A stretch of DNA of 64,000 nucleotides, from the NCBI RefSeq assembly GCF_036370855.1, contig NW_026991398.1, positions 1,178,001 through 1,242,000 of the forward strand, given 5' to 3'. Source of the stretch: Dromaius novaehollandiae. Taxonomy: Eukaryota; Chordata; Aves; Casuariiformes; Dromaiidae. A model generated the notes under the pieces. That model worked only from the letters and a program-made list of their open reading frames with translations. It ran no database searches and was not told the origin of the DNA. Made by a program: the position numbers and the translations under genes. The number at the start of each line of letters is the position of its first letter. The first letter of the stretch is position 1. Positions 39,810-61,028 of the stretch are shown here, piece after piece.

Positions 39810-39988
39810 CCCCGTGACTTAAACATTGATTGGTACGTCTCCTTCCTGAAGTCTTCATAGCCTTCGTCCATGGTGGTGATATGAGACAGAGATCAGAAGG
39901 AAATATAGAAAAGGTAGAAGCACGCACAATAAACAGAGGTCTTGCTCAATGCAAACTTATTCTTTAACAACTTTAACAACATATAACT

Positions 39989-40440: not shown

Positions 40441-40955
40441 TACTGAAACCAGGGGTTCGGCTGGGGAATCCAATTTCTCAACCCCCGGTCCCTGTCAGTC
40501 TGAATCTTCTGTACCAATCATGAGCAAATCTGCCTCTGGAACAGATGCAGACTGAGGTTTCCAATGATCTGATTGTCTCTTCGGGCACTCATTTTTCCAG
40601 TGCCCCTTCCCCCTGCAAATTGCACACTGATCTCTCCTCAGTGGAATTCTATTTCCCAAATTCCCTCCTACTCTATGCCCTCTTCCACATCCTTGTCCTT
40701 TTGGAAAACCCCTTCCCTGAGAGGGAGTTTGTGCCCGGGCAAATGCAGCTGCCAACATTGCAGCATTTTGCCTCTTATCTTTCAGTTTCTCCTTTTGTTT
40801 TTCCTTTCCCTCTACTTCTTCCCTGTTATTGTACACCTTATATTAACATCCCCGACATACCATCTACTTTCTGAAGCTTTCTCCTTATATCTGGTGCTGA
40901 TTGTCCTACCTCTCTCTTAATTGTTTGATTCATTCTTTCAACTTTTCCACTGGAT
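40441..40955 (-). pseudogene. Foreign integrase-nucleocapsid-protease fragments inside ERV-C env
   Basis: Reading on the minus strand: near 40955-40900 an integrase piece (PQSSGKVERMNQTIKRE); then, after stops, a basic Lys/Glu-rich stretch and a single CCHC knuckle (CAICRGKGHWKNEC, ~40620-40580); then near 40470-40440 a protease-start-like EPLVSVKLG in another frame. These belong to gag and pol of a gammaretrovirus-like element, not to env, and appear in a non-genomic order (IN, NC, PR). The env reading is interrupted after EWPPD (40960) and resumes at ~40438. Confidence 0.7.
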
Positions 40956-41830: not shown

Positions 41831-41875
41831 TAGAGGGAGTGGTCGTTCGTCGCCCTCATGGATGCATCCTTGAAT

Positions 41876-44023
41876 CTAGATGGTCCAGAGCAGTAGATGC
41901 ATCTTGGTCAGACCACCACCTTTGAAAACATAAATAAGAACAAACTCGCTCCTCGGGTCAGGAGGAGGGAATAATCCATTTTGTGTGAATCTTGTAGGTT
42001 TTCCCACTAGCATCTTTTGCTCTCCGAATATATTTATTATTCTATTAACCTCCCAGGCATTTTGCTCCCAAAAAGGAAGCCATTCCAGGCAGCCTTTGAA
42101 CACCGTATGTGAGTCCGTGTAGATGTGTACAGGGGAAGTAGCCTGGCTTTTGCATTGGGATACGCTCCACACTGCAGCCAGCTCTCCCACCTGCGCACTG
42201 CCCTCTCCCTCTGTAATGATCTGCTCCTTAGTCCCCACTTGGAGCGCCACAGCCCGGTATCTCCAGGTTTTCCCTTCCCACTTTGAGGAAGCATCTGTGA
42301 ACCATGCATTTAGGATCTGATCGGAAAATGTGGGAGCTACTTGAATTACAGACGGAAGTTGGGGGGTTTCTTTATTCAAGTCTGCCTCATCTTGTATATT
42401 TAATACTTTAGTGGCTCCCTCTGTTACGGAGAAGATTTCACAATAATGCTCTATTTGTGCATACCATTTTCGTACAGAGGCTCTCTGAGCCACCCCGTCA
42501 GGGGGCAGGGTCCCTGCCAGGACTGCTTTGGTCACTTTAAACGGACCTCGGAGAACTATGGTTTGCTTTTGAATAGCTCGTTCAGCCTCTCTTACAGCAA
42601 GGCTGACTACAAACAGCCCCTTCTCCCACATGTGGATAAAGAGCCCAGTCCGGGCAAATCCCCATTCGATCTGGATAGGATCAGTGGGGTGGATTGGCCC
42701 CAAAGCTTGGTAGGCGTTTGCCTCAAAAACCCGCAGCCACAATGCCTCATCGTGGACCGAGGTCCACTCCCAGTGAGCCCTTTTCCGTAGTAAGTTGTAT
42801 AATGGCCTGGCAATAATTGAAAAATTGGGAATGTGCTTCCTCCAGGATACGAGTAGCCCTAGAGCGTGTTGCAGGTCCTTTTTGGACTCCAGCATTTTAA
42901 CTGAGTCTAATGAGGACAGGATATCCAGGGGAATGCAGGTCATCCCCCTCCTCCACCAGATTCCCAGAAATTTTACTTCACTGGAGGGAGTTTGGATCTT
43001 TTCGAGTGGAATTATCAGCCCTACCTGCTCTAGGTGAGCAATAATGTCACGCTGTGTTTTCTCAACGTCCTCTACCCGGCTCCCTCCCACGAGCACATCA
43101 TCTATGTATTGATAAATTTTGACTCCCGCCTGTATGGGGACAGTTTCAAGCTCTTGTGCTAGTGCATGATGGGCTAGTGTAGGGGAGTGCTTGTACCCCT
43201 GAGGTAGTCGGGTGAACGTGTATTGCTGTCCCTCCCACGTGAAGGCAAAACGCTCTTGGTCCTCAGGCTGCAAAGGGACCATAAAAAACATGTCTTTGAC
43301 ATCGATTGTTGCCATCACAGGGTGGGACTGCTCCTGGATAGTCGTTATCAACTCAGCAATATTTGGCACAGCGGCCGTCAATGGGCCTGTATTGTTATTT
43401 AGTCGCCGATAGTCTACGGTTAGTCTCCACTTGCCATTTGGTTTTCGAACTGGCCATACAGGGGAATTGAAGGGGGACTGTGCCGGGATCACAACTCCCT
43501 GTTTTTTCAGGTCCTCCAATACTGGGGTAATACCCTCCCTGGCTCCCAAAGGTAACGGGTAGGGTTTTACATTAGTCAGCCGGGAAGGGGGGAGGGGAGG
43601 TGCCGCTTGCAGCAAGCGCACTGCCACCCCGAAATCTCTGGTTAGTCTTCTAACTTGAGGAACACCGAAAGACCAGGAATTTCCCTGGGTATCTCGCCAC
43701 TGTTTCCCCTTCAGGACATCTATCCCTAAAAGGTTCATTTGAAAAGGCCCCACAGCCACCATGGTGTCCACAGGACTCTCTTCCCCTGGTAACCACAATG
43801 TTACCGGGGTCATGGGCACAGTCTGGGTCTTCCCCAGAGCATTTAAAACTATTAGGTGTTTGGAGGGGGCCGAGATACCACACCGTTCTGCCTCACTCCG
43901 TTTTAGTGCTGTAATTTGGGCCCCTGTGTCAATTAAAAAGGTTACAGGCCTTCTCTTCAGCCCCACCGCTACAGTGATTAACAAATCTCCTTTGTTATTG
44001 CAGGTGAGTTGTCTTATAAACAT
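41876..44023 (-). pseudogene. ERV-C pro-pol, truncated before integrase
   Basis: 715-codon open frame. Protease signature FLIDTGAQITAL (D32). RT with DVKDMFF (D241), LPQGYKHSP at 273-281 and YIDD at 306-309. RNase H with FTDASS, a GELAAVW stretch carrying the Glu, and YTDSH. The match to RNase H ends around FWEQNAWEVNR; the last ~50 residues look foreign and integrase is missing from this position. The frame differs from gag, which ends 44065, so expression would need a frameshift or separate initiation. RT and protease motifs are intact, but the element could not integrate on its own. Confidence 0.85.
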
Positions 44024-44064
44024 CCACCCTCCGCCTCCCCCCTCACCCTGAGGGGATGGAGGAG

Positions 44065-45570
44065 CTAGTTTTCCGCCTCCCTTTCATCCCCCTCAAACCC
44101 CTCTCCCACGTTTAACACCGGTGTGGAAGGTAGTTTCGGTCTGGGCGGGAGTCCCTGTCCGGACCACCTTCGCACCAGAAGCTCTAGTTTTTTGGTTGAG
44201 AGCCCGTCCATCAAGTCTCGGGGCACACCCTTTTGCAGCCCCAATTGCCATAGTCCCTGCCGGGTCAGGGATCTTTCTCTTCTGGCCAAGTCTGGGCTCC
44301 TCCCAGAGAATGCCAGCGGCTTGTTTGCTGGCTCTGCTGCCCGCACGGCCCTAGTTTCCGCTTTTTGGTAAGTCCGGCCGACTGGCCCATATTTCCTCCC
44401 ATAATTGATCAGTTCCTGGGCTACCTCCCCCCAGGTCCACACCTTTTTTCCCAGCCGCTGATGCTCGGGGGTTACCATCCCCTCCAGGGCAGCTGCAATT
44501 CTCTCCTCGCGGGGTACATTTTGGATTCTCCCCTGCAATTGGATCCCAATAGGTTTCAGGGAATCAGGAAGTCCCCGTATTAGGGGTGTCATCCTCTCGG
44601 GATCTACTGGCAATAACATCGGAGAGCTCAGGTTTGGCTTGAGTTCCCGATCATACATCATTTGCAGACAAGCTGCCTTTTGTACACTTTCCAGCAACTG
44701 ATCGACGGAACCTGTTATAGCTAGGGGATCCCCCCTTTCCAAAGGGTTCAGCCCCCCCGCCCAATATGCGGCCCTCTGAGTCAGGGACCACGGGGCTCGG
44801 CCATCGCCGGTTGTCAGGAACACGCCTGGGCCCCAATATCCCTCTGCCTCCTTTTCAGATAGCAGGATTCCGTCCCCCCCCGACAGGGATACCCTCCACA
44901 CGTATTCGGTTTCGGATTCCCTAGCCGTTCTGGCAAAATCCTTTCGCAGCTTGGCCAATTCGGTAGCTGTGAAAGGGATTTCTTTGGTAACAACCTGGGG
45001 GCGGTTGTCGCTATCATCCTCGTATATATATTCTGTTTTGACTAGTGGGCACATATGGGGGGGGTCGTCTACGGCCTCCTTTAGTCTTTTTAGGTCCCTT
45101 TGGGGGTAAATTTGGTGTACCCTTTTTCCTTCAGACAGCACCTCACCTTCGGCAAGGGTGTCTGCCTCCCTCAGGAGCTGGTTTCTTAGCTCCTCTTTCA
45201 ATATCAGACCCTGGTGTTTCTCCTCCTCCAGCGCCCGCTTGGTTTCCCGTAATTGTTCTTGCAGGGCTGTTACCACCGCTTGCAGCGCGGCATTCGCAGC
45301 CTCCGCCTGACAAGGTGCCCCCTTCTTCTCCTCCACCGCAGCTGCTAGGCACGCTCCTAACACGGCACAAACAATAGCTTTCCCTTTTCCTCTCTTAACT
45401 TTAGCTTCTTTTTGCAAGACCGCTATCCGGTCCACTACACTTTGCAATTGGGACCAATGGTTCCGTGCCCAGTCTCGTCCTGAGGGCGAGGGGCGAGAAC
45501 AGTGTATTTCCAAAAGGTCATATAGTTTCTCGATTTCTCCACAAAAGTCGCCTGCCTTCTGGGCGGCCAT
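44065..45570 (-). CDS. ERV-C gag, open
   Basis: 501 residues from ATG 45570 (MAAQKAGDFCGEIEKLYDLL). A predicted coiled region rich in Glu/Lys/Gln (~100-150) is followed by a region with SPMLLPVDPERMTPLIRGLP and a Glu/Lys-rich middle. The end is basic and Pro-rich (RPKLPSTPVLNVGE). No CCHC zinc knuckle is present, which is unusual for an orthoretroviral Gag; a CCHC sequence does occur in this provirus, but in the foreign block at 40.6 kb. Function is inferred from position between leader and pol. The open frame may be chance survival or selection. Confidence 0.72.
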   Translation of the reverse strand: MAAQKAGDFCGEIEKLYDLLEIHCSRPSPSGRDWARNHWSQLQSVVDRIAVLQKEAKVKRGKGKAIVCAVLGACLAAAVEEKKGAPCQAEAANAALQAVVTALQEQLRETKRALEEEKHQGLILKEELRNQLLREADTLAEGEVLSEGKRVHQIYPQRDLKRLKEAVDDPPHMCPLVKTEYIYEDDSDNRPQVVTKEIPFTATELAKLRKDFARTARESETEYVWRVSLSGGDGILLSEKEAEGYWGPGVFLTTGDGRAPWSLTQRAAYWAGGLNPLERGDPLAITGSVDQLLESVQKAACLQMMYDRELKPNLSSPMLLPVDPERMTPLIRGLPDSLKPIGIQLQGRIQNVPREERIAAALEGMVTPEHQRLGKKVWTWGEVAQELINYGRKYGPVGRTYQKAETRAVRAAEPANKPLAFSGRSPDLARRERSLTRQGLWQLGLQKGVPRDLMDGLSTKKLELLVRRWSGQGLPPRPKLPSTPVLNVGEGFEGDEREAEN

Positions 45571-45571
45571 A

Positions 45572-45755
45572 TCCTACAAAGGGGATTTCGTCCCGGGAGG
45601 GCCAAACCTTAAATGAGTCCAAGTTTCCCCTATACGCTCCCGGGAGGCCAAACCGTAAGCTACTATAAAAAATGTCCTACAAAGGGGATTTCATCCTGAG
45701 GGGGTCACACCTTAAAGTCCAAGTTTCCCCTATACACCCTCAGGAGCCAAACCAC
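45572..45755 (-). repeat. Leader tandem repeat of ERV-C (2 units, ~103 bp)
   Basis: tcctacaaaggggatttc starts at 45572 and again at 45675. Both units continue with similar text including tccaagtttcccctatac and ccaaacc. They lie between gag and the primer site, where packaging or translation-control elements of a retroviral leader usually sit. Confidence 0.75.
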
Positions 45756-45943
45756 CAACTAATATACTAAAGATCTCAGCATTCACTCCTTCCTTACACT
45801 TCGTTCGTCTCCGGCCGCTTCCCTCGCGGGAGAGCGGAACCGCGGATCGGAACTCCGCACTCGCTTCGTACTTGTTCGTACGTCTCGTTCACACACACTC
45901 GCTCAGCACACCACAAGGTTGTACGACACTCTCATCTCAAGGG

Positions 45944-45961
45944 ATCCTGTCCGTGACGCCA
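45944..45961 (-). promoter_or_regulatory. ERV-C primer-binding site, tRNA-Ser(CGA)-like
   Basis: The minus strand reads TGGCGTCACGGACAGGAT, which starts TGG and differs at one position from the complement of the tRNA-Ser(CGA) 3' end as I recall it. It lies 6 nt from the LTR edge, more than the usual 0-3 nt. Assignment of the tRNA is from memory. Confidence 0.6.
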
Positions 45962-45967
45962 ATTAGA

Positions 45968-47068
45968 TGTCCCGATCCAATATCGGGGGGGGTTCGTTAC
46001 GATCCCAAGGACGAGATTAAGACGCTAAAACCGGTCAAATATTGTACAACCTTTTAACTTTATTTTCCACGGAGTGGGGAGAAAAGGTGGGGGGAGAAGG
46101 CGAAGGGGAGGAGAGAGAGAAAGAGAGAGAGAGAAAAGGGGGAGAGAGAAAGAGATATCACCACCCGTGGATCCAGCGGCGTCCCGTTGGTCCTCTTCAC
46201 CCTGGGTGTAAATTTTAGCGATACGCGTGCAGTAATTACAACTCGAGCAGGGTCCGACCCTAGGTTCCCGCTGAAAAGTTTGGAATGACACACGTGCAGT
46301 AGTTACAGCTCGAGTTGGGTGCCTCCAAAGAGGGACCCTGAACAAAGAAATCCCTGGGCAATTATAGCTTTTTTCAAATTAAGTTTCCCTCCCCTCATGC
46401 GGCAGTTCAGACCAATAGTAATCTTTGGGTCTGGGGTCTCCTGCTCCCTTATTGGGTCTCATCATTGTTATCTTTACTCTGCCCTTCTTTCTCAGGGCCT
46501 TGACAAACAGGTGTTGTTCCAGCAATTAACACTTACAGTGTTATCTTCCAAGGTCCTGATGAAGAGGATACAATCCAGACCCCCCCTAATTAACACTGTT
46601 TCAGCAGTGAGGGGAGGCTTTGTTTCTCAGGGTCCTGGCGCCCAAGCAGGCCTTATTTCAAAGCCTTGACATCCTCCCTCCCGGAGTGTGACGCATAGGA
46701 ATGCAAACTGCTGGTAACTCCCTTATCTTTCCAGTCTGCACCAGCTCTGGGGCCCTTTCTCACTGAACTAGGGAGTGCGGCCTAAGGCTTCAGCAAATTT
46801 AGCTACTCATGCTAAGCAACTTTTATAAAAGTTGAGCTAAGCGGCAGTAATTTGCAGTCCAGGTCCCAAAGTCTCTGCCCGATCGTGGTCTGGTTCAGCG
46901 CAGGCTCAGTGTGTCCCGAATGGTCGCAGGGAGACCATTTCAGGGGTCGCAGCAGCTCAGTCCTGTTTCCGCTGGGAACAGATGGCTTGTTCGGGGTTAT
47001 GGTTCGCTTGCATCTTATGTACCAAGAAATGTTCAAGGCAAAAGTTCACTCATCTGTCCGCCACACCA
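45968..47068 (-). repeat. ERV-C 5' LTR, 1101 bp
   Basis: Printed strand begins TGTCCCGATCC and ends CGCCACACCA, matching the other LTR over most of its length, with deletions of ~30-60 bp relative to it near 46285 and 46460. A purine-rich gagagag tract lies at 46100-46160. Confidence 0.88.
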
Positions 47069-47349: not shown

Positions 47350-48235
47350 CAGCGTGCCTGGCCTATGAGGGCCTGAGGCACAAGTGACCTCACAAGCACA
47401 AACAGCAGCCATTGGCCTGCCACTGGCCTGTCAGGGCCGCAGGTGCAAGTGACCTCACAATCTGCATCAAAGACACGTGACCACTGCTGGCCCATCAGGG
47501 AGTGAGGCAGAAGTGGCCTCACAAGTACAAACTGCACCAAGATGCCTGTGCTGGCCAGTGAGGTACTGAGGCCAAGGGACCTCACCATCTGCATCCAAGC
47601 CATGGGCCTGATGCTCACCTATGAGGGGCTGAGGCAGAAAGGACCCCACAGGAACAAACAGCAGCAATGTGCCTGCTCCTGGCTTAGCACGTCTGGAGAC
47701 ACAATGACCTCACCAGCACCACCAAAGCCACGTGCATGCTGCTGGTCTCTCAGGTTCTCAGTGTCCTCACCAAGACAACCAGCAGTAATGTAGCTGGCGC
47801 TGGCCTACCAGGTAGGGATTGAAAAGGGGCCTCACATTAAGCCCTGCAGCCATATGCCTGCAGCTGCCCTATCAGGTACTGAGTCACCAATGACCTCACA
47901 AGTGCCAATGGCAGCCATGTGCCTGCTGCTGGCCTATCCCGTACCAAGGCACCACTGACCTCACACTCAGCCTCGAAGCCATGTGCCTGCTGCTGGCCTA
48001 TCAAGGCCTGAGGCAGAAGCACCTCACAATCTGCACCAACAGCACTTAGGTGCCTCCCCCAGCCTAGGAGGTGCTGAGGCACAAGTCACCTCACAGGCAG
48101 CACCCAAGCCAGCTGCCTGCAGCTTGCCCAGCAGCTCCTGAGGATAAAGGGACCTCACAAGCACACACCCTCCCCATGGGCCTGCTGCTGACCTGTCAGG
48201 TACTCAGGCAGAAGGGACCTCCAAGGCCACACTGA
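47350..48235 (+). repeat. Diverged tandem repeat, ~65-bp unit, about 14 units
   Basis: The word gacctcaca or a close variant recurs about every 63-66 bp (for example 47386, 47451, 47515, and on to ~48215). Between occurrences lie alternating tails of two types, caagcacaaacagcagcc and caatctgcatccaagcc-like, followed by a tgcctgctgctggcc-type segment and tatcaggtactgaggcac. Adjacent units are well diverged. No coding frame persists. Confidence 0.8.
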
Positions 48236-48505
48236 AGCTATTGAAAGGTTTCCTGCTGATCAGGAGAATGCACAGAGGTGACATCCCAAGAACCTGCACC
48301 AACCAAGAGCCTGCTGGGCACAGCCTTTTCTCTACAGGAAGGTGCTCTGCCAAAGGATCTGTCACAGGGGCAGCTGGGAACCTCCACTGCTTCTTCAGGC
48401 ATGAGACACATCTCTGGGACAGTCTGTATTTCACAAAAACACAGGGGTTGAGGCAGGCTTCTCTGATGCCCTTCGCAGAGGAGAAGCTCACCTGGGTCAC
48501 CCTCC
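48236..48505. other. Left flank of ERV-B; no gene
   Basis: No similarity seen to the sequence that precedes the matching point in copy 1 (before 19577). Frames on both strands are open for ~110 codons across this stretch but carry no domain and run into the LTR. Confidence 0.5.
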
Positions 48506-48735
48506 TGTCGCCTTCTGATGCGACAATCTCCCGTTCGCCTGAGACGGCACGGAGGCTCCCCCAGCCTCCGGGCCAATGAGCACTGACACCAATATGAGGA
48601 TGCTGCAAATGGCGTTTATTGTACGCATGTATTCGCTTATGTACCTACAAGCATACTGCTATCTCTACGTCATATCCTTCCTCTTCCTTCCTCTTTCCGT
48701 GCCATCGCGAGATCTTCCGATCGCCGTTCCCTGCA
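48506..48735 (-). repeat. ERV-B 3' LTR, 230 bp
   Basis: Printed strand TGTCGCCTTCTG to CGTTCCCTGCA. The TATA region reads gtacataag on the coding strand, against gtatataag in the other LTR. The outer U3 end is TGCAGGG instead of TGTAGGG. Polypurine tract complement tctccccctcccc at 48736-48748. Confidence 0.93.
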
Positions 48736-48771
48736 TCTCCCCCTCCCCATGCTTTGACTATGCTATTTGCT

Positions 48772-49313
48772 TTAAATTGCCGTGTCGCGGGTTAAGCGTT
48801 CATAATGTGGGTGTGGGTGGGACCATCCCTTTTCTAGCAGTTGTCTTACCAAGCATCTAAACACTAGTCTACATGCTAATATGCCTAGCACGAGCATCAG
48901 CAGCAGGTGCAACTCTTCTATTAGTAATTGCCTGGCCCATGGTCCTAGCCCAAGCCAATTGTGCGGGTCCCAGGGCAATGATGCATTCAGCGTGTTCTAG
49001 CAGTTACTAATATTGCTTGTGTTTGTGCAATGCTCTCTCAGCTTTGGTAGGTCTACAGTCAAATCCAATGGGACCCCTATTAAGCCTGTCTTAAAAGGCT
49101 GCCCCGCACCCGCCAACGTCAGGCAAAATTGCTTATTTCCTGTCCGGTTTGCCAGGTGAGCCATAGATTGTTACTACCCCATTTCGCTAACATTGGTTCG
49201 CCTTTCACCCCTTGGAGTCCCAGTCCCAGCATCGCTACGAGGAGAGCTACTTGGGTTGCTCCCCCTGCCATCTTCTCGGGTTTTCTGGTTACGCGTTCTT
49301 CTTGTGGTTTCAC
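48772..49313 (-). pseudogene. ERV-B env remnant with large internal deletion
   Basis: An N-terminal frame 49313-49119 with the signal-peptide-like hydrophobic run (VALLVAMLGLGLQ) ends at a stop. A Cys/Asn-rich surface fragment in a changed frame (49118-48990) is followed by the frame 48978-48772 with membrane anchor LLLMLVLGILACRLVF and short tail. A TAG interrupts the middle piece (~49005). Compared with ERV-A about 30 bp are further lost near 48965. Most of Env is absent, so the protein cannot function. Confidence 0.8.
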
Positions 49314-49420
49314 GCACCTTTTCTCATCTGTTCTTCTTCTCCTGTCTGCTGTCTTTGCTGCTAGAAGGGATCATCGGCTTTTCAGGGTGGTCCTCCCCTG
49401 CAATAAAACTCAGACATTCA

Positions 49421-51940
49421 TTAATTCACCTGACTCTCTGCTTCCTGTCTTGTCCTTGCCCTGAGGTCTGGGCGCACCCACTTCATAGGGACCCATCTTA
49501 CCATTTCTCCCTGCCTGACCGCTGCATACCCTCGTTCTTGGGTTACCAGTTGCCACCCCTCTTCCCATTCCCCTTTTTCCGGGATTCGGACCTTTACGTC
49601 TGGTCCCTCGTGCATGGCTCGGACCGCCCAATGCTTTTCCGCTGGCGTCTTGTTCTCCTCCCCCCTGATGAACTGATTCAGACCGAATAAGGCGCGCATA
49701 ATTATTTCTGATTGTTTGTGCGCGGGGATTCTTTGTGTATATCCTTCCCCCTCCCCAAGAATCTTGATCCTTTGCTTTAAAGTGTGGTTTGCTCGCTCGA
49801 CGATGGCCTGACCTGTGCCATTATAGGCAATACCGTGCACTAGCTTAATTCCCCACCGTACGGCCCATTCTTTCGTGCTTTGCGCTGTGAAACACGTGCC
49901 GTTGTCTGTTTTAATAGTTTCTGGGGCACCCAGCCAGGCCATTGCCGTGTGCCAATGCAACTGTGCCGCCCGCGCTGTGACTCGTTTATGTTGGGTCGCC
50001 ACGATGATACCGCTGTGTGTGTCCACTGTAACAGCCAGCCAGGGCCGTGGTCGAAGTCGCTGGCACATTGTGAAGTCCGTTTGCCATATTTGGTTTCCTT
50101 TCAGCCCCCTGGGGTTGATGCCGGCGCCCCACAGGGGTTTTTTTTGGCAATACGGGCAAGCCGCAACCACTTCACGAGCCGTGGTGAGGGGGATGTTGCA
50201 GCTTTTTGCCAGTGCTTTTGCACCAACATGGAGAAGGTCGTGCACCTGCCTTGCTTCTGCGACTGTCCACACACCTTTGGCCGCTTGATCGGCTTTATTG
50301 TTGCCCTCTTGGTACACTCCTTGGATTGCCTCATGACTCTGAACATGAATAACGGAGGCAGTGGCCCGCCGCTGTTGTAGGGCTTCTTCTAGCAGTAGCG
50401 CAATGGGCGATCCGGCCCATCCGGGATATGACATGTTGTGTAACAATTTAAAGACGAACATGGAGTCTGTCACTACATTCAAATGCTCTTCTGGCCACAT
50501 TTGCAATGCCTGCGCCACAGCTCGGGCCTCTAGATGCTGTACGCTACTGTCCGGCTCGCTGATCTTCACTCGGTGCCACTGGGCCTTTTGATCTTGCCAC
50601 ACAACAACCGCTGCCCTGGTCACCGATGACGCGTCGGTGAACACTGTGCGCCCTGGTGCAGGTCGCTGTAGCACTCGGGCTTTCAGATGGGGCCGAAGGA
50701 CGGAGAGGTGTGTATACATCTCCAGCACAGGCGATAATCTGATTGTTCCTGGGAATCCTTCTAAAGCTATTGCTATACTATCTTGTTTCTGGACCACGCT
50801 GTCCCATTGATTCCTTTTTACCGGCAGGTAAATGGACTCAGGCTCCTTCGCGAAGTGCCAAACAGTGGCGGTTCGTCCCTTCTGTATCATCTGTGCCAAC
50901 GCTGTTACGATTGTGACGTATGCCGTACTTATTTGGTTTGACACTATCCACCATACGACTTCCGGACGCTCCGGTGTCCCTTGTCCTAGAACGCCTATGG
51001 CTCCTGTTCTTGTAACTGCCACGTACAGATTGATAGGTCTGGCCGGGTCGTATCTCGTTACTCCGCCCTTTGCCATGAGATCTTCTATTTTTCGGAGGGC
51101 TTCTAACGCGTTCGGTGTCATCTGCCTCGGTTCCCATGGTTTGCGGCCCTTGAGCAACTCGAACAGTGGCTCCATCCACTCCTTGGGAATACCTATCAGC
51201 CCTCGCAGCCATTGGAGAGCTCCAACCAATTGTTGTACATCATGCAACGTCCGTATCTCTCTATTGAGCTTTATCGGCTGTGGGACCACAGCTCTGGGGA
51301 GGATGGTGGTTCCCAGATAGTCGACAGATTCTCCCCTTTGCGTCTTCACTTTCTGGACGTACAATCCCGCTTCATTTAGGCAGTTAATTACTGCCTGTTC
51401 TGCCTGATCGGTTTCTTGCTGGGTCTCTGCAGCTATTAGGAGGTCGTCCATGTAATGGATGATAAGCGCGCGCGGGAGCTGCGCTCTTACCGGCTGCAAT
51501 ACCTTAGCTGCTGCCGCCTGACAAATCGTAGGTGAAATTTTTATGCCCTGCGGGAGGACGGTCCATTGATATCGCGCTGCTGGCTCCTGCAGATTCTCTG
51601 AGGGCAGTGTGAAGGCAAATCGAGCTTTGTCCTGAGGGGCTAATGGTATAGAGAAAAAGCAATCTTGGATATCCATCACCACCACTGGCCAATTCTTTGG
51701 TATTGCTGATGGTAGTGGCAACCCTGGCTGGAGGGCACCCATCGCTTCCATCTGCTGATTTACCGCTCGTAGGTCGTGCAGTAATCGAAATTTAGACTTA
51801 TCCTTTTTGTGTATCACAAATATAGGAGTGTTCCAGGGACTGTGGCTTTCCTCCAGGTGTCCCTGCTCTAATTCTCTACTTACTATTTGTCGGGCAGCCG
51901 CCAATTTGTCCCCTGTCAATGGCCACTGCTCTACCCACAC
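49421..51940 (-). CDS. ERV-B pol (RT, RNase H, integrase), intact frame
   Basis: 839 codons from the first Met to the stop at 49421; the natural start is by -1 frameshift from pro, and the frame is open from 52012. RT: D90 in VVVMDIQDCFF, LPQGIKISP at 129-137 and YMDD at 163-166. RNase H: FTDASS, LEARAVAQAL, VTDSM and NNKADQAA. Integrase: VHDLLH (HX3H), CPYC (CX2C), and catalytic D, D, E in WQTDF, IKTDNG and AIVERANH, with a full C-terminal domain. All catalytic residues are present. Production is doubtful because gag is broken and the pro-pol slippery site is changed. Confidence 0.92.
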   Translation of the reverse strand: MWVEQWPLTGDKLAAARQIVSRELEQGHLEESHSPWNTPIFVIHKKDKSKFRLLHDLRAVNQQMEAMGALQPGLPLPSAIPKNWPVVVMDIQDCFFSIPLAPQDKARFAFTLPSENLQEPAARYQWTVLPQGIKISPTICQAAAAKVLQPVRAQLPRALIIHYMDDLLIAAETQQETDQAEQAVINCLNEAGLYVQKVKTQRGESVDYLGTTILPRAVVPQPIKLNREIRTLHDVQQLVGALQWLRGLIGIPKEWMEPLFELLKGRKPWEPRQMTPNALEALRKIEDLMAKGGVTRYDPARPINLYVAVTRTGAIGVLGQGTPERPEVVWWIVSNQISTAYVTIVTALAQMIQKGRTATVWHFAKEPESIYLPVKRNQWDSVVQKQDSIAIALEGFPGTIRLSPVLEMYTHLSVLRPHLKARVLQRPAPGRTVFTDASSVTRAAVVVWQDQKAQWHRVKISEPDSSVQHLEARAVAQALQMWPEEHLNVVTDSMFVFKLLHNMSYPGWAGSPIALLLEEALQQRRATASVIHVQSHEAIQGVYQEGNNKADQAAKGVWTVAEARQVHDLLHVGAKALAKSCNIPLTTAREVVAACPYCQKKPLWGAGINPRGLKGNQIWQTDFTMCQRLRPRPWLAVTVDTHSGIIVATQHKRVTARAAQLHWHTAMAWLGAPETIKTDNGTCFTAQSTKEWAVRWGIKLVHGIAYNGTGQAIVERANHTLKQRIKILGEGEGYTQRIPAHKQSEIIMRALFGLNQFIRGEENKTPAEKHWAVRAMHEGPDVKVRIPEKGEWEEGWQLVTQERGYAAVRQGEMVRWVPMKWVRPDLRARTRQEAESQVN

Positions 51941-52005
51941 AGGCTCATTGGAGCACCATGTCAGCGGGACAGCAAAATGAGCCCCGAGGAGGTAGGCAGT
52001 GGCCC

Positions 52006-52380
52006 TTACCCTAAATTCGTCAGGTGAAAGCCGCTTTGCAATAAGGCATCTCGCCCTAACAATGGTTCCCCTATGGCAGTTATGTACGGCCGCACACGGA
52101 TGATCTGAGCAGGCCTATCCGGGTCCTCCAATACAATTGTGATATCGGTTTCAGAAATCATAGCCTCCGCCCTGCCTCCCACTCCATCTAACGAGCTTGC
52201 CACTTTTGCTGGCCAGCTCGATGGCCACAACCACGAGGGCACACATGTAACATCTGCCCCCGTATCTAGCATCATTATTAAGGGGATGCTAGGAGGACCC
52301 GCCCCTGGTGGGCCTATCAGATGTGCTTTCACTCGGGGTCTCTTCTCACACCCTAAGACCAGGGCCACGCGGGGTTTCCC
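52006..52380 (-). CDS. ERV-B protease (pro), transframe reading
   Basis: Read by -1 frameshift at GGGAAAC (52380-52374) and ending at 52006. Carries MMLDTGADVTC and GEPLLGRDAL, and is nearly identical to ERV-A pro. Open throughout. The context is the same as in ERV-A: gag, pro and pol lie in three frames. Confidence 0.82.
   Translation of the reverse strand, partial: GKPRVALVLGCEKRPRVKAHLIGPPGAGPPSIPLIMMLDTGADVTCVPSWLWPSSWPAKVASSLDGVGGRAEAMISETDITIVLEDPDRPAQIIRVRPYITAIGEPLLGRDALLQSGFHLTNLG
52012..52018 (-). promoter_or_regulatory. Altered pro-pol slippery site GAATTTA
   Basis: Same position as AAATTTA in ERV-A (22405-22411), but the first base is G (ACA to ACG codon change, silent for Thr). 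The X XXY YYZ pattern is lost, so frameshifting into pol should be reduced. Confidence 0.7.
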
Positions 52381-53684
52381 TTCGGAGTTTGGTCGCTGGA
52401 GCTGTCCATCAGCGGTGTGTTGTTGTTGACAGGGGCTACTTGAAGCCGGTTCACCGGGGAGGGGTGGCCCCCTAGTTGCCCTCCCCGCTTCTCGTTTCCC
52501 GACTGCCGACAATCTCGTGCTCTGTGTCCTGGTTTTCCACAGGCCCAGCATGTAAGGCTCCCCATACCACCTGTTGGGCGCGCATAACTTCCCTTATTCG
52601 TGCACTGTGCTCTCAAATGGCCCATTCGCCCGCAGCCAAAGCATGGGCCTCCTTTTGGACCTCCTCTAGCTCTAACCTCCGGCATTGCCATAACTGCTGC
52701 AGCAATCTGTAGGGCTGTGGTCTTGTCCCGGTGTTCTAATACGTACTTGATCGTCTGCCCTAGACTTGCTCCCTTAGGCGCTGTTCTTAGGATTTCTTTT
52801 GTCAACTCGTTGCCCTGTTGTTTGATACATTCCAACATCACCGCTCCTTTTGCAGCGTCTGGTAAAGATGCAAGTTCTACTGCTGCCTGTAGCCTGTCAC
52901 AAAACTTGTCAAACGGCTCTCCCACTCTCTGCTTCACAGTCGTCCATGGGTCTGCCTGCTGCACCAGTGGCCCAATATCATCAAAGGCCTTTCGAGATGC
53001 TTCTGTTGCCACCAGTATCTCCCGAGGTCTCAGGCCCGCTGCCTGCTGCTGGGGTGTAGCCATGGCCGCATCATTTCCTCTTAACCGCGGTAGGGTGGAT
53101 TGGCCCAGTGGGTTCTGCGGGTCTGCCTGTGCGGCCATCAACGCCTGCCGCAAGCGCGAGGTCCACGCTTCTTTCCACATAAGGACCATCGTGGGCGATA
53201 AAACCAGTCGCGCGAGGGCGCGACAATCCCACGCTATTAGGCCTCCCGCGTGCGCCGCGTCCAGCAACGTCTGTGTCACCGGGTGTCGCAGGCCCTGTTC
53301 TTGCACTGCTTTCAATAGCTGTTGTACCATCATTGGGTCGAGGGGCATCCATTCCACCGCCCCCCCCCCCGGGGCAACTCTTACTGGGAAGGCCCCTATT
53401 GGCGCACGAAACTTGAGGCCACTCAGGGCACATTCCGTCGCTATCAGTTTCCAGTCTGTTAGGGGAATTTCTTTTCCCCCTCCCGCTTGGGTGGAACCTG
53501 CTGTCTCTGATAGCCCTCTTTGTTTAGCTGCTGCCTCTGATAGCCCTCTTTGTTTAGCTGTTGCCTCTAATAGCCCTCTTTGTTTAGCTATTGCCTCTGA
53601 TAGCCCTCTTTGTTTAGCTGTTTCTTCTTCCAGAGCTGTAAGCAGCATAAACATCTGCTCCATATCTCTTGTGACTTTCCTCCT

Positions 53685-53716
<32 letters not shown>

Positions 53717-54621
53717 CTCCTTCGCCTCTGACTGCGGCGGGGGAACTCCGCCCTAGTTGCTGCACCTGAGTCTTCAGTCTCCTCCTTCCGCAATGCTGGT
53801 CGACGCCCACTCCTCTCTCAGCCAGCGCCATCTTTTCCCGGGTGCGGCACCCTCGGTCTTTCCCCTGCTTCTGGTCTTTCCCCTGCTTCTTCTCTTCTTT
53901 CGTCCTCCCACTGCACCCGAATCATGGCCCCCGGTAGCCAGTCTCGGGGATCATCCACTATAATCGTTTTTTCCTTTTCTTCTGCCTCCTCCACTTTCAC
54001 CTTGCTTTCTTTTCCTCTACCTGCCTCTGGCTTTTTCATATCTCGGTCTCCACACAGGTCTCCTGGTTCTCCTAGTTCTCCCCCTTCCATCGCCCTCATC
54101 TCTTTCCACGGATACCGCGGCGGAGGCAGAGAAGAGGGCGTTACTGGGTAAGCCTCTGGAGTTTTTGCCTCCCCCTCTCCCCGCTCTGGTTCTTGATTAA
54201 CCGCCTCCTCCTTTATGTCTGTTTCCACACTCTCCGTTTTCACTTCATCCCCTACTATCGCCTCTTCCTCTATCGCCTCCGTTCGCTCCTCTGCGTTCGC
54301 TGCTGTCTGTGTTGCCATTTCCGCGGACATGTGCAGCGCCGCGCGGGCAGCCTGCCAGGTCTCAAGCTCCTCCCTAGTCCTTTCTAAAATGATCGTTATG
54401 TCTCCCCACGTCTTAAGCTCTGCGGCCTTCTTAGTGGCCATAGCTCTCTGAGCAAGTGCACGAGTGCACTTCTCCCAGTTAGAAGGGGAAAAAATGTCCC
54501 CTGGTCTAACTATCGCTCCATCTTTCAGGAGCCGCCCGACGCAGTTCGCAACTGCATTCGCTCTCATAGAGAGCCCCCATTCCCGGGCACCCACGCATAC
54601 AACCTTAACTACTGCGTCCAT
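52353..54621 (-). pseudogene. ERV-B gag with nonsense change and 38-bp deletion
   Basis: Starts MDAVVKVVCV at ATG 54621. MA-like N-terminus, acidic middle, 10-residue KQRGL repeat (four copies, ~53503-53620), CA-like region, two CCHC knuckles (CFGCGRMGHLRAQC, CWACGKPGHRARDC) and stop at 52353. Lesions relative to ERV-A: a CGA-to-TGA nonsense change at 53820-53818; a 38-bp deletion at ~53765 that shifts the frame; and an A/T run of ~30 at 53687-53716 (Lys run) where ERV-A has six A. The C-terminal half is intact from ~53760 on. Confidence 0.9.
52374..52380 (-). promoter_or_regulatory. Gag-pro -1 frameshift heptamer GGGAAAC
   Basis: Same heptamer, frame and distance to the gag stop as in ERV-A (22043-22049). 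Conserved in both proviruses. Confidence 0.8.
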
Positions 54622-54663
54622 GATCCGGATCCTCTCGACCGCCTGCGGTCCGCCGTCTCAGCT

Positions 54664-54681
54664 ATCACGTCGGGGTCACCA
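54664..54681 (-). promoter_or_regulatory. Primer-binding site for tRNA-Trp
   Basis: The minus strand reads TGGTGACCCCGACGTGAT, the tRNA-Trp primer site known from Rous sarcoma/avian leukosis viruses. It is separated by two bases (AG) from the LTR CA, as expected for the dinucleotide trimmed at integration. Confidence 0.9.
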
Positions 54682-54683
54682 CT

Positions 54684-54913
54684 TGTCGCCTTCTGATGCG
54701 ACAATCTCCCGTTCGCCTGAGACGGCACGGAGGTTCCCCCTGCCTCCGGGCCAATGAGCACTGACACCAATATGAGGATGCTGCAAATGGCGTTTATTGT
54801 ACGCATGTATTTGCTTATATACCTACAAGCATACTGCTATCTCTACGTCATATCCTTCCTCTTCCTTCCTCTTTCCGTGCCATCGCGAGATGTTCCGATC
54901 GCCGTTCCCTACA
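54684..54913 (-). repeat. ERV-B 5' LTR, 230 bp
   Basis: Printed strand TGTCGCCTTCTG to CGTTCCCTACA. On the minus strand TATATAAG lies at ~54822-54815 and AATAAA at 54798-54793. Its outer edge is the first base beside duplication copy 2. Confidence 0.94.
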
Positions 54914-55171
54914 ATTTCTCCAAATGTGCATTCTCATTGAAATAAAAGCTATGGTTTCCTCAGAATGCTGCATCATTCTTTATTAAGTGCTCATATTGTA
55001 TCTTTAGTGTCATAACTGTATCATTACTTGGGAGATTCCAATGTTTAAACATGGTATGTTTGAAATGAGGTGTCTCACATGAAACACACAGTTACTGAGG
55101 ACAAAAAGTCTCTTGAAACAAAACCAGAATCAATTACCTAATTGGTTTTTTTTGTTTTTATCTGTGCTGTC

Positions 55172-55936
55172 TTTTTGACAAAATCTTTCTAGCAATTTCT
55201 GTCCTTGAAAATGATCCTCCCCCCCCCCCAAGGGCTCATAATTCCCCAAAGGTCTTCTTTTACTGATTTTTGTTTGTTTCTTTTTTTTTGTCATAAAACG
55301 GTCTGGTAAAATCAACCGGCGAAGACCTTTATTTTCAGTCACTGCAAACTTGGATTAACTGGTGGCTGTTCACTCACTCCCACTTGATGCTAACATCTAT
55401 GTATTATTCCACCTTGTTTCTCTTGATGCTTTCTTCTTTTCTTCGGTTATCTTACTATTTATTCCTTGCCTTAACTTTAGCTATGTCACTGACCGCCCAT
55501 AGTGAGCAGATGCTTTGTGGTTCATGGTGCATTAACACTGAAGAATGTTGCTTTTGGTATCAATTGGTGCACTCATCTTCCCAAAGTTCAGTCACCTAAT
55601 ACACATTCATACAGCCTAAGCTGCTCTGCAGAAGCCACAGGGAGGTGGAATCTCGGAGGAAACCTTAGGGATGGGATGACTTAAGCCCCAGTAGCTCTGT
55701 CTCTCTCCAGTGACTGCAGAGATTGGATGACCCATTGAGGCTTAAAGTTGTTTAAATGAGTTATATGAAAAAGCTGAAGATTAAATGAAATTATTTCCAT
55801 GTCTGCCTATTTGGAGGTACAATAAAAGGCAATCCTCCATATTTAAGTAGCATTGACTTCTGTAAGACTTGGCCTCAAAAACAAAAAGCTTGCCTCTTAC
55901 ATGCCTTGCCTTACTAGATTAAGAGAAGCATTTATA
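55172..55936. other. 765 bp of host sequence missing from copy 1
   Basis: Unique to copy 2. It lies between the end of the left match (gctgtc) and the start of the right match (aaatctgtc). AT-rich; no gene or repeat recognised. Its absence in copy 1 coincides with the truncated end of ERV-A. Confidence 0.85.
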
Positions 55937-58900
55937 AATCTGTCATTAAAATGTTAAAAATACAGGTGAAAATAAATGTCATCAGGCAGTTCAGATGCCA
56001 GTAGCTATGATAAAATCTAGTCTTTCCTGCTGGATGGGTAACCTCACACTGTATGATTTCTTGATAGCTATTAGTTTTTCTAGATACAAACAGTAAATAC
56101 AATGAATTTTTTTCCTGAAATGTTCATTGAAAAAACAAGCAATTAACTTCTGGATCAGATTCCACTATACTTATTTTACCTTTCTTACCTGAACTGTGGT
56201 CTCTCTAGACACAAGTGGAGACAGGTATGTTTTACTAAATGGAGAGCCCTCCAGTGCTAAGACACTGTCTAAACTGCCTAAATTCATCATCTTCTGCAGG
56301 TGCCATTCTTTTTCCCCTGACTCTGAAGGGGCAGCAGACACTAACTCTGATGTGAACATTTGCAGTGCAGCAGTGGGATTCAGCTCCAGACAGCGAAGCT
56401 GGTGTCTGCAACGCAAGTGGTCTGAGCTCTCATTATATTCAGCAGTGACCTGGCCAATAGTGTCCACAGAGCTTACAGAGCATTTTTGCTGAACAAATGT
56501 AGGGAAGTGATTAGTTGAGGAAACATGGGCATGTAGTGCTATTTTTAGTATTCTAGGATATTCTAGGATATTTTAAATGCCTACATGGGATGGAAGAAAA
56601 GACAACAGACACTGCTGGCTCAGAACCAGCTGATTAAATCTTCTGGTTCATAGATGCCTGTCTTTAAGCAGTTGGTCTCCATTGACTATAACAGAAGCTT
56701 ATATGTCCCATTCACTGGTGCTCCACAGAGAATGAAAGTCTTGGGGTCCACTGACCAGACCTTAGAGCCATTCAGTACCCTCATGCTCCCAGTCTGAGTC
56801 AGTGCTTTCTAGAGGGAAGAGACCTCACTCCCCTGGCCTTGCCAGCCCACCAAACCAGAACATTTGCTGTCTGTGACCTCTTTTCAAGTCATTCTCCTAA
56901 ATTATTCTACAACTTCCACTCCACATATCCTTTCTCTGCTTTTTTGATCTCCAGAGCCTTACCAGCAATAAGACTTCCTTGGCATTGCAAGTCCTGCTGT
57001 TGGATGGCTTATCTTCTGGTGTGTGCTGTTGTTTGGAGTTTTATGGGATATCACAAGGGATCATGCTTTTGGGGGAAAAGGTGATGATCTAGAGTGTAAG
57101 TGGAGAAGGCAGGAGTAATTTGCAACTTTTTTTTCATGCCTCAGTAACTGCCTGTTTGTTTGAGCAAAGGGAGAGATGAATCTCTGCCCTGATAGGAGGG
57201 GAAGGGGAAAGAGGGAGTTTGTGTAGACTTCTGTCTCATGCAGAAGTCAAAAAGTCAAGATGGAGTGATGGAGTGTGATTCCACAGAAGGGTCAAGGAGT
57301 TCTCTGGACCAAGAAGGACAGAGCTAGGGGCACTCAGTTACCTAACTTGGGATGGCTACCATAGAGATGTCTCTCCCTGAGCTTCCTTTGTAGTCAGGAA
57401 GAGAAACATCTACTGTTGGATACAAGTCATTTGAGCTAATTTAGACAATTCACATAAGATGAGTTGTATCCCTCTAGAAACGCCTCACTGGGTGTGAAGG
57501 CAGGCTAAAAGAGGAAGCTCCTTTGGATGGTACCTCTTGCAGGCATCTAGTAGTATTCCAGGTGCCCTGGGCATGTATACATCACGTACAGAAAACCTGT
57601 GCCCTTCAGGGAGGCAGTTTGAGGCCAGGCAGGACGTCCTCAAATGGCCTTGAACACCTACACATACGAATTCACAGAGCCTCTTGTGTCAAAGTCACCT
57701 CAGCTTCACCTGTTACCTCAGGTCCCTCCCAAGTCCATGATGAGGGACCAGCATCTCCACATCTCCAGAGAGGGAGTCATCCTACCTGTTTCAGGAGTCC
57801 ATCTTAGAAGAGCATCTGTCATTCTCTGATGTGGCTGATTCTGACTGTCAGTGAAATCTCCCTGACCAGCAGAGATTTGGACCCTAGAAGTTTGTTGAAG
57901 TGAATCGCAGGGGAGTCACTCTTAAAAAGAAATTAAATTTGGGGATACTCAAGGAATTTTTTTGTTTGTTTGTTTGTTTGTTTTGTGGAGGTCATTGAGT
58001 CCAACACATCCCCTCAAAGAAAAGCAAGTTATGTGGCTCGTACTTTTTCCCCTCAGGTATCACCTTGGTATCTCTCACATCTCAAGTTCTTTTCTCTGTC
58101 ATACCACTTTCAACTATAGTATTTTCCAGATTTCCCTTTCTTTGTCATTCCCCAGAAAATTGTGCACCTCGTTAGAAAGAACATCTCGTTCACATGCTCA
58201 GCTCACCCTGGGATGCAGGAGGTGACTGAAGTCCAGCTCTTCAGGCAATGGGGAATGGTTGCTTCATACAGGAATATCCATGCTCACATACTTCATTACC
58301 GATCAGAGAGAAGCTTGGCCTGCACCTGCTGGTGCTCACTATTTCTGTCTGAAAGGAAGATAGCACCCACCCAAGGACAGTCAAGCCAAGCCCGTTACTG
58401 TCCCAAGTGAGCTCTGTGTGATCCATCACTCCCCTAGTCTGGGGGCTCAGAGTGTGTCAAGAACTCACTGTGTTTCTGCTTGAGACCCCATCCCATGCTG
58501 CTGCTGGAAGTCCCTGCTTTCAATCCCCATGCCAAGTTATTGTGGGGAGGAAAAGGAATCCTGGAATGATGAAACCACTTCCAGTGGCATCTGAGATACC
58601 GGTTTTCAGAGGCTGAATTATCCTCTGCAGATACTGCTCTGAAGTACAGAACACAGCCGATATCACTGCGCCAAGACTTAGAGATCAATACTTCAAATAT
58701 CTGAAGTTAAGGTCGATGAATGCCACCCAGAGAATTTACACACTGATTATAGTTATATGCTCAGGGAATTAAGGGTACCCAGAATTTCATGACCGATTTC
58801 TGTCTCTCTAAAGTTATATCATATTCATCCTTCTGGCTATGGGACGGGACTCTTAGGAAAGCTTTCTTTATTATCAACACCCTTGTTTTCTCATCTCCCA

Positions 58901-60608
58901 CTGCAGCAGGATGGTATTGGTTCAGTTATTAACAAACAAACAAACAAACAACAAACATGCTTTCCTCTGTGAATTCAGATGAGGGGAAGCAAAGAAAGAT
59001 GGAGAGAGCTTCAGAGGCCATGGTAAGCATGAACTGTGGGAGTAAAGCAAGGAGAGAGGATTAGGGGTAGGAAAGGAAGAAAATGCAAGGCCTCAGTTCA
59101 TAAGAGCTATGTCAGTGAGTGGGGAACAAATGAGTAATTAAAATGTGTTTGTGGGGGGGAAATGATGCAAAGGAAAGCAGAGGAAAGTAATGATTTCTGC
59201 TTAAAGTACTGGGAAAATAAGACCCAGATGATATACCTTTCCTCTGAAGAAGAGCCTACAACTTTTTAGAGGGGCTGAGACTATCAGACCAGCTTTCACA
59301 GTTCTCCTCTGCAAGAAACCTGAGAGAACAGGAGGGGTGGGATTCACCTTCTCAGATGTAGACACGTTCAGTGGAAAGGCTTGATTCAGTTGCCCACTTA
59401 TCCCTGCCAATATGGAGATGCCCTGAGGTATCCAAGACATGTACAGGAATGCCATCCCTCAACTTAGCTGGGCAATGGGAGGGAAAACAGCCCCTCAAGA
59501 GTAAGGTTTCTCCCACTTCAGAACAGGTGCAACAGGCATGAGGGAACACAGGCTGTTGGGAGGCTGGCTGAGAACAAAAGCTCAGAGGAAGATTAAGTCA
59601 GGCCCTGCCTCTGGTGACCAAATTACAATCAGCTTCTGTTGATATACTTATCATATGTTTGTGGCTCCACAGATAATAGCTATATCTCCTCAGAAGGCCA
59701 CTCCAGGTGCTGAAAGGTGAGTGAGGGAAATGCTCGAGGCATGCACAGGAGCGAGGCTTTAGGGATGGGCTCATATATGAAGGCTTGAAAGAGACCACTG
59801 AACAGTAGAAAAATATTGACCCAGAATAAAAATCGTGTTGCATGGGTAATGGTGTAGGTAGCCATTTGGGAATGCTCCTACATGTCTAGTGGTAAAAGCT
59901 GAAGCCCTGTAGTTGATGTTTGCAAGAAGTTTACCTTGTAATGCATGAATGTGAGTGATAATGCTAAGAGCTTTCCTTGAAGCAAAACAACCCCCCCCCA
60001 AAAAAAGAACACAGCAAAGAGAAAAAGAACTTGCATAAATTGAACAGTGTCTCACTGAAAATAAAAACACAAAGTTCCTGTGTTTGTTATAGAGATGGAA
60101 CCAATGACAGCAAATGCTGACGGACGACAAAGAAGATCGCTGCATAGGTTTTTGTGAATAGTTCCTCATGATTTGGATGAAGCAAGGAAGCACAAATGCG
60201 ATTTATCGGACTGTTGGTATCACCAGAACCGCCAACAGACAGAGCTGTTCCTGCCCAGGGAACTGGGATAACTCTCTGTGCCAAGTGTGTGTTGTGTCTC
60301 CTCCCGGGCAGTGCTGAGGACTAAGCAATCCTTTCCCACCCTGGGCACGGTGTTAGCAGTATCTGGCTTCGCTCCACTTCGGTGGCTTCTCTTTTCTTTC
60401 TGTTTGGTTTCGTTATCCTACATGCATGTGTGAGAAGGGGAAGAGATGATAACTTTTAGACTAATTGCCACGGCTGCACCTGAAGAGAGCAGAAAACCAT
60501 CAGTGAGCCAAAGTAATAAAATCAAATGGACCCAACTGAAAGCTGCCTCCACCTCCAAACAAGAGAAGCCCTGTTTCTCCTGGGGAGGAAGGACCGCTGT
60601 TACATACC

Positions 60609-61028
60609 GGGAGCTGTAGTCTGCGAGCACAGGGCTGCCGAGTGGCCATGTTCCCCGCGGGGCATGATGGGAGCTGTAGTCTGCTGGTAGGGGGCTGCTG
60701 GTTGGCCACGTTCACCACGGGGCATGATGGGAGCTGTAGTCTGCAATCACAGGGCTGTGAGGCAGCCATGTTCCCCACGGGGCATGCTGGGAGCTGTAGT
60801 CTGCCAGCATTGGGCTGCTAGGTGGCCATGTTGCCCGCGGGGCATGCTGGAAGCTGTAGTCTGCAATCACAGGGCTGTGAGGCAGCCATGTTGCCCGCAG
60901 GGCAGGCTGGGAGCTGTAGTCTGCCAGCATTGGGCTGCTAGGTGGCCATGTTGCCCGCGGGGCATGCTGGAAGCTGTAGTCTGCAATCACAGGGCTGTTG
61001 GGCGGCCATGTTGCCCACGGGACATGCT
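60609..61028 (-). repeat. 60-bp minisatellite, 7 units (ZNF143/YY1-like motifs)
   Basis: Units start at 60609, 60669, 60729, 60789, 60849, 60909 and 60969. 60789-60908 and 60909-61028 are near-identical 120-bp dimers, so the two extra units relative to copy 1 arose by one dimer duplication. Motif content is as in copy 1; some units vary (for example gcaggctgg at 60900-60910). Confidence 0.92.

Follow-up and report, generated by a model that had tools for sequence, protein, structure and literature searches.

Provirus B, which lies between olfactory-receptor (OR) cluster repeats in the window (the whole stretch of 64,000 nucleotides that was analysed), probably arose when two proviruses of a single young, alpharetrovirus-like family underwent homologous recombination. 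A recombination between two related proviruses, one contributing each flank, had been proposed by the sequence-only reading. It is backed by the flanks, which are separate sites found uninterrupted elsewhere. The LTRs, being of different subgroups, lend it independent support.

Structure and gene content of provirus B

The features of provirus B and of its left flank are the following:
48506-54913, minus strand: provirus B with two full 230-bp LTRs, delimited by self-comparison and by the LTR edges
54684-54913, minus strand: 5′ LTR of B, 230 bp, with TG...CA ends
48506-48735, minus strand: 3′ LTR of B, 230 bp, with TG...CA ends
48130-48505, plus strand: left flank of B, a stretch of a dispersed host repeat that breaks off at CCCTCC/LTR

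As described before, both LTRs are complete and carry TG...CA ends. The genes gag, protease, and pol are present (Pfam domains Retro_M, Gag_p24, RVP, RVT_1, RNase_H, and rve), and no env was recognised in the scanned frames of at least 130 codons. The alpharetrovirus-like traits of B are the Retro_M domain in gag and a pol close to that of Rous sarcoma virus (RSV). The solved structures most closely related to its pol frame include the integrases of RSV and avian sarcoma virus (ASV). B resembles these viruses in both respects and is unlike them in being endogenous and in its unrecognised env. The stretch adjoining the 5′ LTR may be a tRNA-Trp primer-binding site. A tRNA gene search returned 0 genes.

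Flanks of provirus B and the OR-bearing unit

The six bases outside B read CCCTCC on the left and ATTTCT on the right and are alike at two of six positions, which is about chance, so the missing target duplication noted earlier was confirmed. Target repeats are absent despite complete outer LTR ends, although the left end can be placed only to within 4 bp.

Both flanks belong to dispersed repeat units of the olfactory-receptor cluster. With the left flank as query, 40 matches were listed including itself, and 20 of the 39 others were read. In all 20 the left site is uninterrupted and runs on into other host DNA, with 480–600 bp of common DNA to the right of the site. With the right flank as query, 38 relatives were listed besides copy 1 of the OR-bearing unit, of which 31 were read; the right site is uninterrupted in all 31 and in copy 1. 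Each flank thus passes intact into its own host DNA elsewhere in the genome, and B therefore joins two unrelated sites. No provirus was found at either flank site in the places read with these two queries, which is weak evidence against an assembly misjoin, because the queries would miss places that hold only a severed half.

In 14 of the 20 left-flank relatives the next host DNA starts with TGTC, as does the LTR, and the left boundary of B is therefore uncertain by up to 4 bp. The motif has a frequency of 0.49% in the window. This 4-bp overlap at the left junction is not predicted by recombination and speaks against it; the right junction has no microhomology.

To the right of B lies the second of two copies of the OR-bearing unit in the window:
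11011-33985, plus strand: copy 1 of the OR-bearing unit, interrupted by provirus A, both limits approximate
54914-64000, plus strand: copy 2 of the OR-bearing unit, its left part cut off by B, with an OR reading frame at the window's end
14046-15035, minus strand: olfactory-receptor reading frame (Pfam 7tm_4, 8.2e-48), in the part of the unit missing from copy 2
17523-18068, plus strand: partial olfactory-receptor reading frame (Pfam 7tm_4, 8.6e-27), in the part of the unit missing from copy 2

Homology between the copies begins exactly at 54914 and 19577, and copy 1 has no provirus there, both as first reported. The placement of B on the edge of a segmental duplication was not confirmed. The DNA left of 19577 belongs to the same OR-bearing unit in all 31 other relatives read, so that 19577 is no native edge, and 11011-19576 is the part of copy 1 without a counterpart in copy 2. 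Two relatives which were fetched further match 11011-19576 of the window at 94–97%, and both matches end near 11011. The 31 relatives read run on across this point, as does copy 1; an edge at 54914 was seen in copy 2 only, and it was made by B. By way of caution, what looks like a duplication "edge" in a comparison of two copies may have been left by something that happened afterwards.

LTR subgroups and the proposed recombination

The two LTRs of B differ at 6 of 230 sites. Three of the six (58, 129, and 136) separate LTR subgroups: in the plus-strand numbering of the window, the 5′ LTR has T at 58, T at 129, and A at 136, and the 3′ LTR has A, C, and G. The 12 nearest relatives read of the 3′ LTR are one site away from it and five sites away from the 5′ LTR. 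Among 59 other LTRs read, which were picked for similarity to B's own LTRs and not randomly, all 59 are nearer to the 3′ LTR than the 5′ LTR of B is, and 53 are nearer to the 5′ LTR than the 3′ LTR of B is. As a control, the markers were concordant in 16 of 17 LTR pairings elsewhere at provirus spacing (5.1–6.2 kb). FastTree support is low (0.12) for the nearest group of the 5′ LTR and moderate (0.87) for that of the 3′ LTR. The subgroup markers of the two LTRs differ; by sequence comparison they belong to different subgroups and are not each other's nearest relatives. A comparison of three LTRs inside the window had given a star-like pattern, each LTR of B having three changes to itself. This is wrong when set against the genome LTRs, which place one of these changes in the 5′ LTR, and two in the 3′ LTR, at subgroup markers.

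We infer that B is a hybrid of two alpharetrovirus-like proviruses. One, X, would have inserted into a left-flank-type repeat unit at CCCTCC and the other, Y, into copy 2 at ATTTCT, the two presumably lying on a single chromosome and pointing the same way. A crossover inside the proviruses would then have joined the left flank of X to the right flank of Y, and the right flank of X and the left flank of Y would have been lost from this locus. It counts against this reading that neither X nor Y nor a reciprocal product came to light among the places read. The simplest form of such an event would be a deletion, which would have removed at least 8.6 kb of the left part of copy 2 together with the counterparts of the OR frames 14046-15035 and 17523-18068. 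If this reading holds, LTR divergence cannot be used for dating B, since each LTR would come from a different parental provirus.

A second member of the same family interrupts copy 1:
19837-25944, plus strand: provirus A, same family as B, in copy 1, without 5′ LTR and adjacent host DNA

Copy 2 retains the empty site of A at 55937, which reads AATCTG once, plus 765 bp missing from copy 1; A has lost one LTR, and its right flank runs colinear with copy 2. The internal divergence between A and B amounts to 0.25–3% per 400 bp without a step to mark a crossover, an observation that speaks against recombination. An inversion between A and B was considered and rejected, since the partner sequences were not found in the stretches compared and since the right flank of A is colinear with copy 2. 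Within the window, copy 1 alone contains the sequence to the left of 19577, which was not found in 64001-94000 either. In one relative (L051), the sequence beyond the left site was looked for in the window, in 64001-94000, and in the other stretches compared, and was not found.

Other explanations and known systems

An assembly misjoin, in which the assembler merged a real provirus in one repeat unit with a real provirus in the other and no hybrid exists in the bird, is rather unlikely and ranks first among the alternatives. Across near-identical repeats, mismatched flanks and unpaired LTRs would be its outcome as well, and the family is large (669 candidates at first look) with many nearly identical copies, both flanks being repetitive too. 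However, bases that occur in none of the other 59 LTRs read are present in both LTRs of B (at sites 51 and 209, and at site 228), which makes B more than a mixture of the youngest copies. Furthermore, the contig spans 3.56 Mb through this locus, and the places read hold no provirus at either flank site, an argument weakened by queries blind to severed halves. We consider it very unlikely that B stems from one aberrant integration, in which integrase joined the right end at ATTTCT in copy 2 and host repair joined the left end to distant DNA via TGTC. The 4 bp of microhomology on the left and none on the right would fit, and host-joined ends with rearrangements are on record (PMC5041404, PMC2857682), but the two LTRs would be expected to be identical at the start. 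Their subgroup states differ at three sites, so that a single provirus would have had to acquire known subgroup states by several separate mutations, or else one of its LTRs was gene-converted. Gene conversion among LTRs is documented in humans (PMC4921805) and is also invoked where B is taken for a simple insertion with one LTR converted by a family member and one flank replaced by an unrelated rearrangement. This course is highly improbable, as more than one event would be called for and another breakpoint would have to fall no more than 4 bp from where the LTR ends.

The sequence-only reading had further suggested that the recombination could have built the OR-bearing duplication. B would then mark the seam of a tandem duplication, left there when copy 2 was generated by unequal crossing over of Y, located at 19577, with X, located at 48505. 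The start of the in-window copy homology exactly at the edge of B favours this, but the unit occurs in at least 38 further places besides copies 1 and 2, and the 31 read all extend left of 19577, as far as about 11011 in both that were read to that point. Moreover, copy 1 is not the closest relative of copy 2, which is about equally close to six other relatives and to copy 1, with identities of 96.1–97.1% and 96.5%, respectively, over all or part of 55937-60600. A seam would require a left-flank-type unit past copy 2; the near-identity of the copies stops near 63985 and no such unit was found in 64001-94000 (30 kb), and the claim is therefore unsupported. On these grounds the seam was rejected and has next to no probability. 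The unit duplication is independent of the event that formed B, and B shortened an existing OR-bearing unit; that it created the duplication is not supported.

The preferred recombination between two proviruses belongs to a known kind of event, in which proviruses join unrelated DNA. HERV-K(HML-2) proviruses were reportedly rearranged by ectopic recombination, as described by Hughes and Coffin in 2001 and in a 2005 paper in Genetics. Like B, such recombinants have mismatched flanking repeats and non-pairing LTRs; unlike them, B is found in a bird, is alpharetrovirus-like, and has repeat units of an olfactory-receptor cluster as both flanks. In PMC3228705, six HML-2 proviruses with non-paired LTRs are described, and intact identical flanking repeats are taken as a sign against recombination. 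In the beta-defensin region of human and macaque, ERV LTRs lie at a copy-number variation boundary, and in human the flanking duplication-rich region contains olfactory-receptor genes (PMC4255768). The boundary position is shared with B. The beta-defensin LTRs are said by the authors to have mediated the first copy-number change, whereas B ends one copy and the duplication is not its work. For aberrant integration, PMC5041404 describes, for a defective viral end and for drug-treated HIV, ends joined by the host and accompanied by inversions, deletions, duplications, and interchromosomal transfers, and PMC2857682 an XMRV end minus 5 bp which was accompanied by a 273-bp duplication. Such RSV and HIV cases share with B the lack of a proper target duplication and the joining of distant host DNA; the LTRs of B are of different subgroups, which is not expected from a single integration. 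The titles and abstract openings of the literature searched do not name this locus, and the statement extends to these only.

B represents a clean avian case in which a rearrangement is marked by a hybrid provirus and both empty flanks and the subgroup of each LTR are legible in one genome. It also illustrates how ERVs can prune repeat units in a fast-changing receptor cluster. As a tentative extension, ERVs, chiefly of this recently active alpharetrovirus-like family, might recurrently break and reshuffle OR-cluster units, several unit edges being provirus or LTR edges. Hints of this kind are B itself and the partial loss of A, as well as the unit in one relative (L034), which ends at an LTR of a different ERV family. 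Further hints are an ERV at 38616-47068 with mismatched flanks and, away from the cluster contigs, a set of three LTRs at even spacing (C4:6775290-6786035).

Provirus B and its flanking repeat units

The alpharetrovirus-like provirus B lies between two dispersed repeat units. On its left is a host unit represented by 48130-48505 (left-flank-type unit) and on its right an olfactory-receptor (OR)-bearing unit, of which the window holds copy 1 (about 11011-33985) and copy 2 (54914-64000). The features concerned are:

48506-54913, minus strand: provirus B, with LTRs and gag/pol domains
19837-25944: provirus A, present in copy 1, not in copy 2
38616-47068, minus strand: third provirus, its LTRs 1.1-1.2 kb long and matching each other at 89-96% in separate pieces
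14046-15035: OR frame in the part 11011-19576 of copy 1, missing from copy 2
17523-18068: partial OR frame in the same part of copy 1, missing from copy 2

Several frames of B encode Gag, protease, reverse transcriptase, RNase H and integrase domains, and the closest solved relatives of its pol frame include the RSV and ASV integrases. Both LTRs are 230 bp long with TG...CA ends. Despite these complete ends, the bases just outside are CCCTCC (left) and ATTTCT (right), as the sequence-only reading had noticed.

Both flanks were aligned to the 1.47-Gb assembly of 271 contigs, in which the window is G000:C158:1178001-1242000. For the right flank (query 54914-55300, 387 bases), 40 of the 55 candidates from a first look were scored, and at least 40 main genome places were found, counting B's own and copy 1. 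The other 38 listed match at least 302 of the 387 bases, and 31 of them were read. In all 31, as in copy 1, the DNA left of 19577 runs unbroken into the site, and none carries an LTR there. The hexamer at this site is ATTTCT in 27, ATTACT in three and AGTTCT in one. Copy 1, rightly described before as lacking a provirus at 19577, is therefore one empty site among many, and the DNA left of 19577 belongs to the repeat unit. This does not bear out the earlier claim that B sits on a segmental-duplication edge. The two relatives closest over 258 bp beside the junction (99.2%), read 10 kb further, match 11011-19576 at 94-97%, and the matches end at about 11011 in both; this position is a better candidate than 19577 for the true edge of the unit.

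Within 55937-60600, compared in whole or in part, copy 2 shows 96.5% identity to copy 1 and 96.1-97.1% to six other relatives. Four of the six cover nearly all of this region, one aligns as two separate pieces and one along 1.1 kb. Judged by these identities, the two copies are no special pair. Given at least 38 further places with the unit, and its extension leftward past 19577 in all 31 read, the earlier proposal that recombination could have built the OR-bearing duplication is not supported.

For the left flank (query 48130-48505), at least 40 places were listed, own included, after scoring of part of the 426 candidates from the first look. Twenty of the other 39 were read, and all cross the start point of B uninterrupted. 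Beyond it lies common host DNA, 480-600 bp of which aligned to one relative at 89-98%; this continuation was found neither in the window nor in 64001-94000. A place with nothing but a severed half would go unlisted by either flank query. As both sites are empty in every relative read, B joins two different repeat units.

In addition, the reading of B as the seam left by a tandem duplication of 19577-48505 was considered and rejected. It would need a left-flank-type unit after copy 2. The near-identity of the copies stops at about 63985 and falls to about 77% past 64000, and left-flank-type DNA was not found in 64001-94000.

The two LTRs of provirus B

The 5′ LTR (54684-54913) and the 3′ LTR (48506-48735) differ at 6 of 230 sites, numbered along the plus strand of the window. 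The comparison took in the full list of 39 other LTRs ranked nearest to the 5′ LTR (set 1) and 20 of the corresponding 39 for the 3′ LTR (set 2); four more of the latter 39 already belonged to set 1. Since both sets were chosen for similarity to B's LTRs, the following marker frequencies are not those of the whole family. At site 58 (5′ LTR T, 3′ LTR A) the T:A ratio is 10:29 in set 1 and 0:20 in set 2; at site 129 (T, C) T:C is 38:1 and 0:20; at site 136 (A, G) A:G is 39:0 and 2:18. The remaining differences are private among all 59 LTRs, sites 51 and 209 in the 5′ LTR and site 228 in the 3′ LTR.

Each of the 12 closest relatives of the 3′ LTR shows one mismatch to it and five to the 5′ LTR. 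All 59 other LTRs resemble the 3′ LTR more closely than its partner in B does, and 53 of them resemble the 5′ LTR more closely than its partner does. In a midpoint-rooted FastTree of 62 LTRs, the two LTRs of B meet nowhere but at the root, with low support (0.12) for the nearest group of the 5′ LTR and moderate support (0.87) for that of the 3′ LTR. As a control, 17 LTR pairings 5.1-6.2 kb apart were used, assigned to one provirus by spacing alone (10 from set 1, two sharing one LTR, and 7 from set 2). Fifteen show no difference and one a single difference with the same marker states, so that 16 agree at the markers. The remaining pairing has two differences and unlike states at site 58.

Origin of provirus B

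The mismatched flanks are evidence independent of the unpaired LTRs, and each indicates that B probably arose when two proviruses crossed over, one (X) lying in a left-flank-type unit (CCCTCC) and the other (Y) in copy 2 (ATTTCT). The recombination of related proviruses suggested earlier is thus supported by the empty sites and the differing subgroup markers. An assembly misjoin would give the same flanks and LTRs, and seems an unlikely source of B. Far less probable is that the host joined the left viral end, as is reported in PMC5041404 where one viral end is defective. The 4-base overlap at the left junction, which counts against a crossover, would suit such joining: the host continuation starts with TGTC, as the LTR does, in 14 of 20 relatives, and TGTC has a frequency of 0.49% in the window. 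However, host joining leaves the three subgroup differences unexplained.

The crossover would have taken place inside X and Y. If both stood on this chromosome and pointed the same way, it would have deleted the DNA between them. This is the simplest outcome, since the two surviving halves share one contig and the left side of Y is missing. That a deletion occurred, how large it was and that X and Y shared a chromosome is what we infer; alternatively, the exchange may have occurred between chromosomes or homologues. A deletion would strip copy 2 of at least the counterpart of 11011-19576, including the counterparts of both OR frames. The common internal region of A and B diverges by about 2% without a step, so no crossover point is visible, and A is not known to be a parent.

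Non-paired LTRs and broken flanking repeats are generally taken as evidence of recombination in human HML-2 proviruses; PMC3228705 describes six with non-paired LTRs, and PMC4422153 refers to five more that underwent ectopic recombination. Like these, B has unpaired LTRs and mismatched flanks; it is an avian instance of an already known kind of recombinant provirus. Furthermore, according to PMC4255768, LTRs lie at copy-number boundaries of the beta-defensin locus, which in human adjoins a duplication-rich region with olfactory-receptor genes. B ends one copy of the OR-bearing unit.

Neighbouring proviruses and related LTRs

Only 5 different sequences occur among the 39 LTRs of the similarity-picked set 1, and in 9 of its 10 pairings the two LTRs are identical, which suggests recent activity of B's LTR family. 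Two LTRs 5055 bp apart (G000:C2:95202936 and 95207991) differ in their site 58 states and are possibly a second unpaired provirus. Three identical B-family LTRs, equally spaced at 5258 bp (G000:C4:6775290, 6780548 and 6785806), could be two tandem proviruses with a common LTR.

Provirus A has lost its 5′ LTR together with about 77 bp of leader and a 765-bp stretch of host DNA. Copy 2 retains that host DNA and keeps the empty site of A at 55937. The third provirus, whose right end lies 1.4 kb left of B, also has mismatched flanks (left CATCCATC, right ACTGCCAA). An LTR resembling its own starts at about 3053 of locus L034 (C64:692800-702600), where homology of the OR unit to copy 2 ends (copy-2 position 57076). 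Finally, the number of units in a 60-bp tandem array is not the same in copy 1 (30637-30943) and copy 2 (60609-61030).
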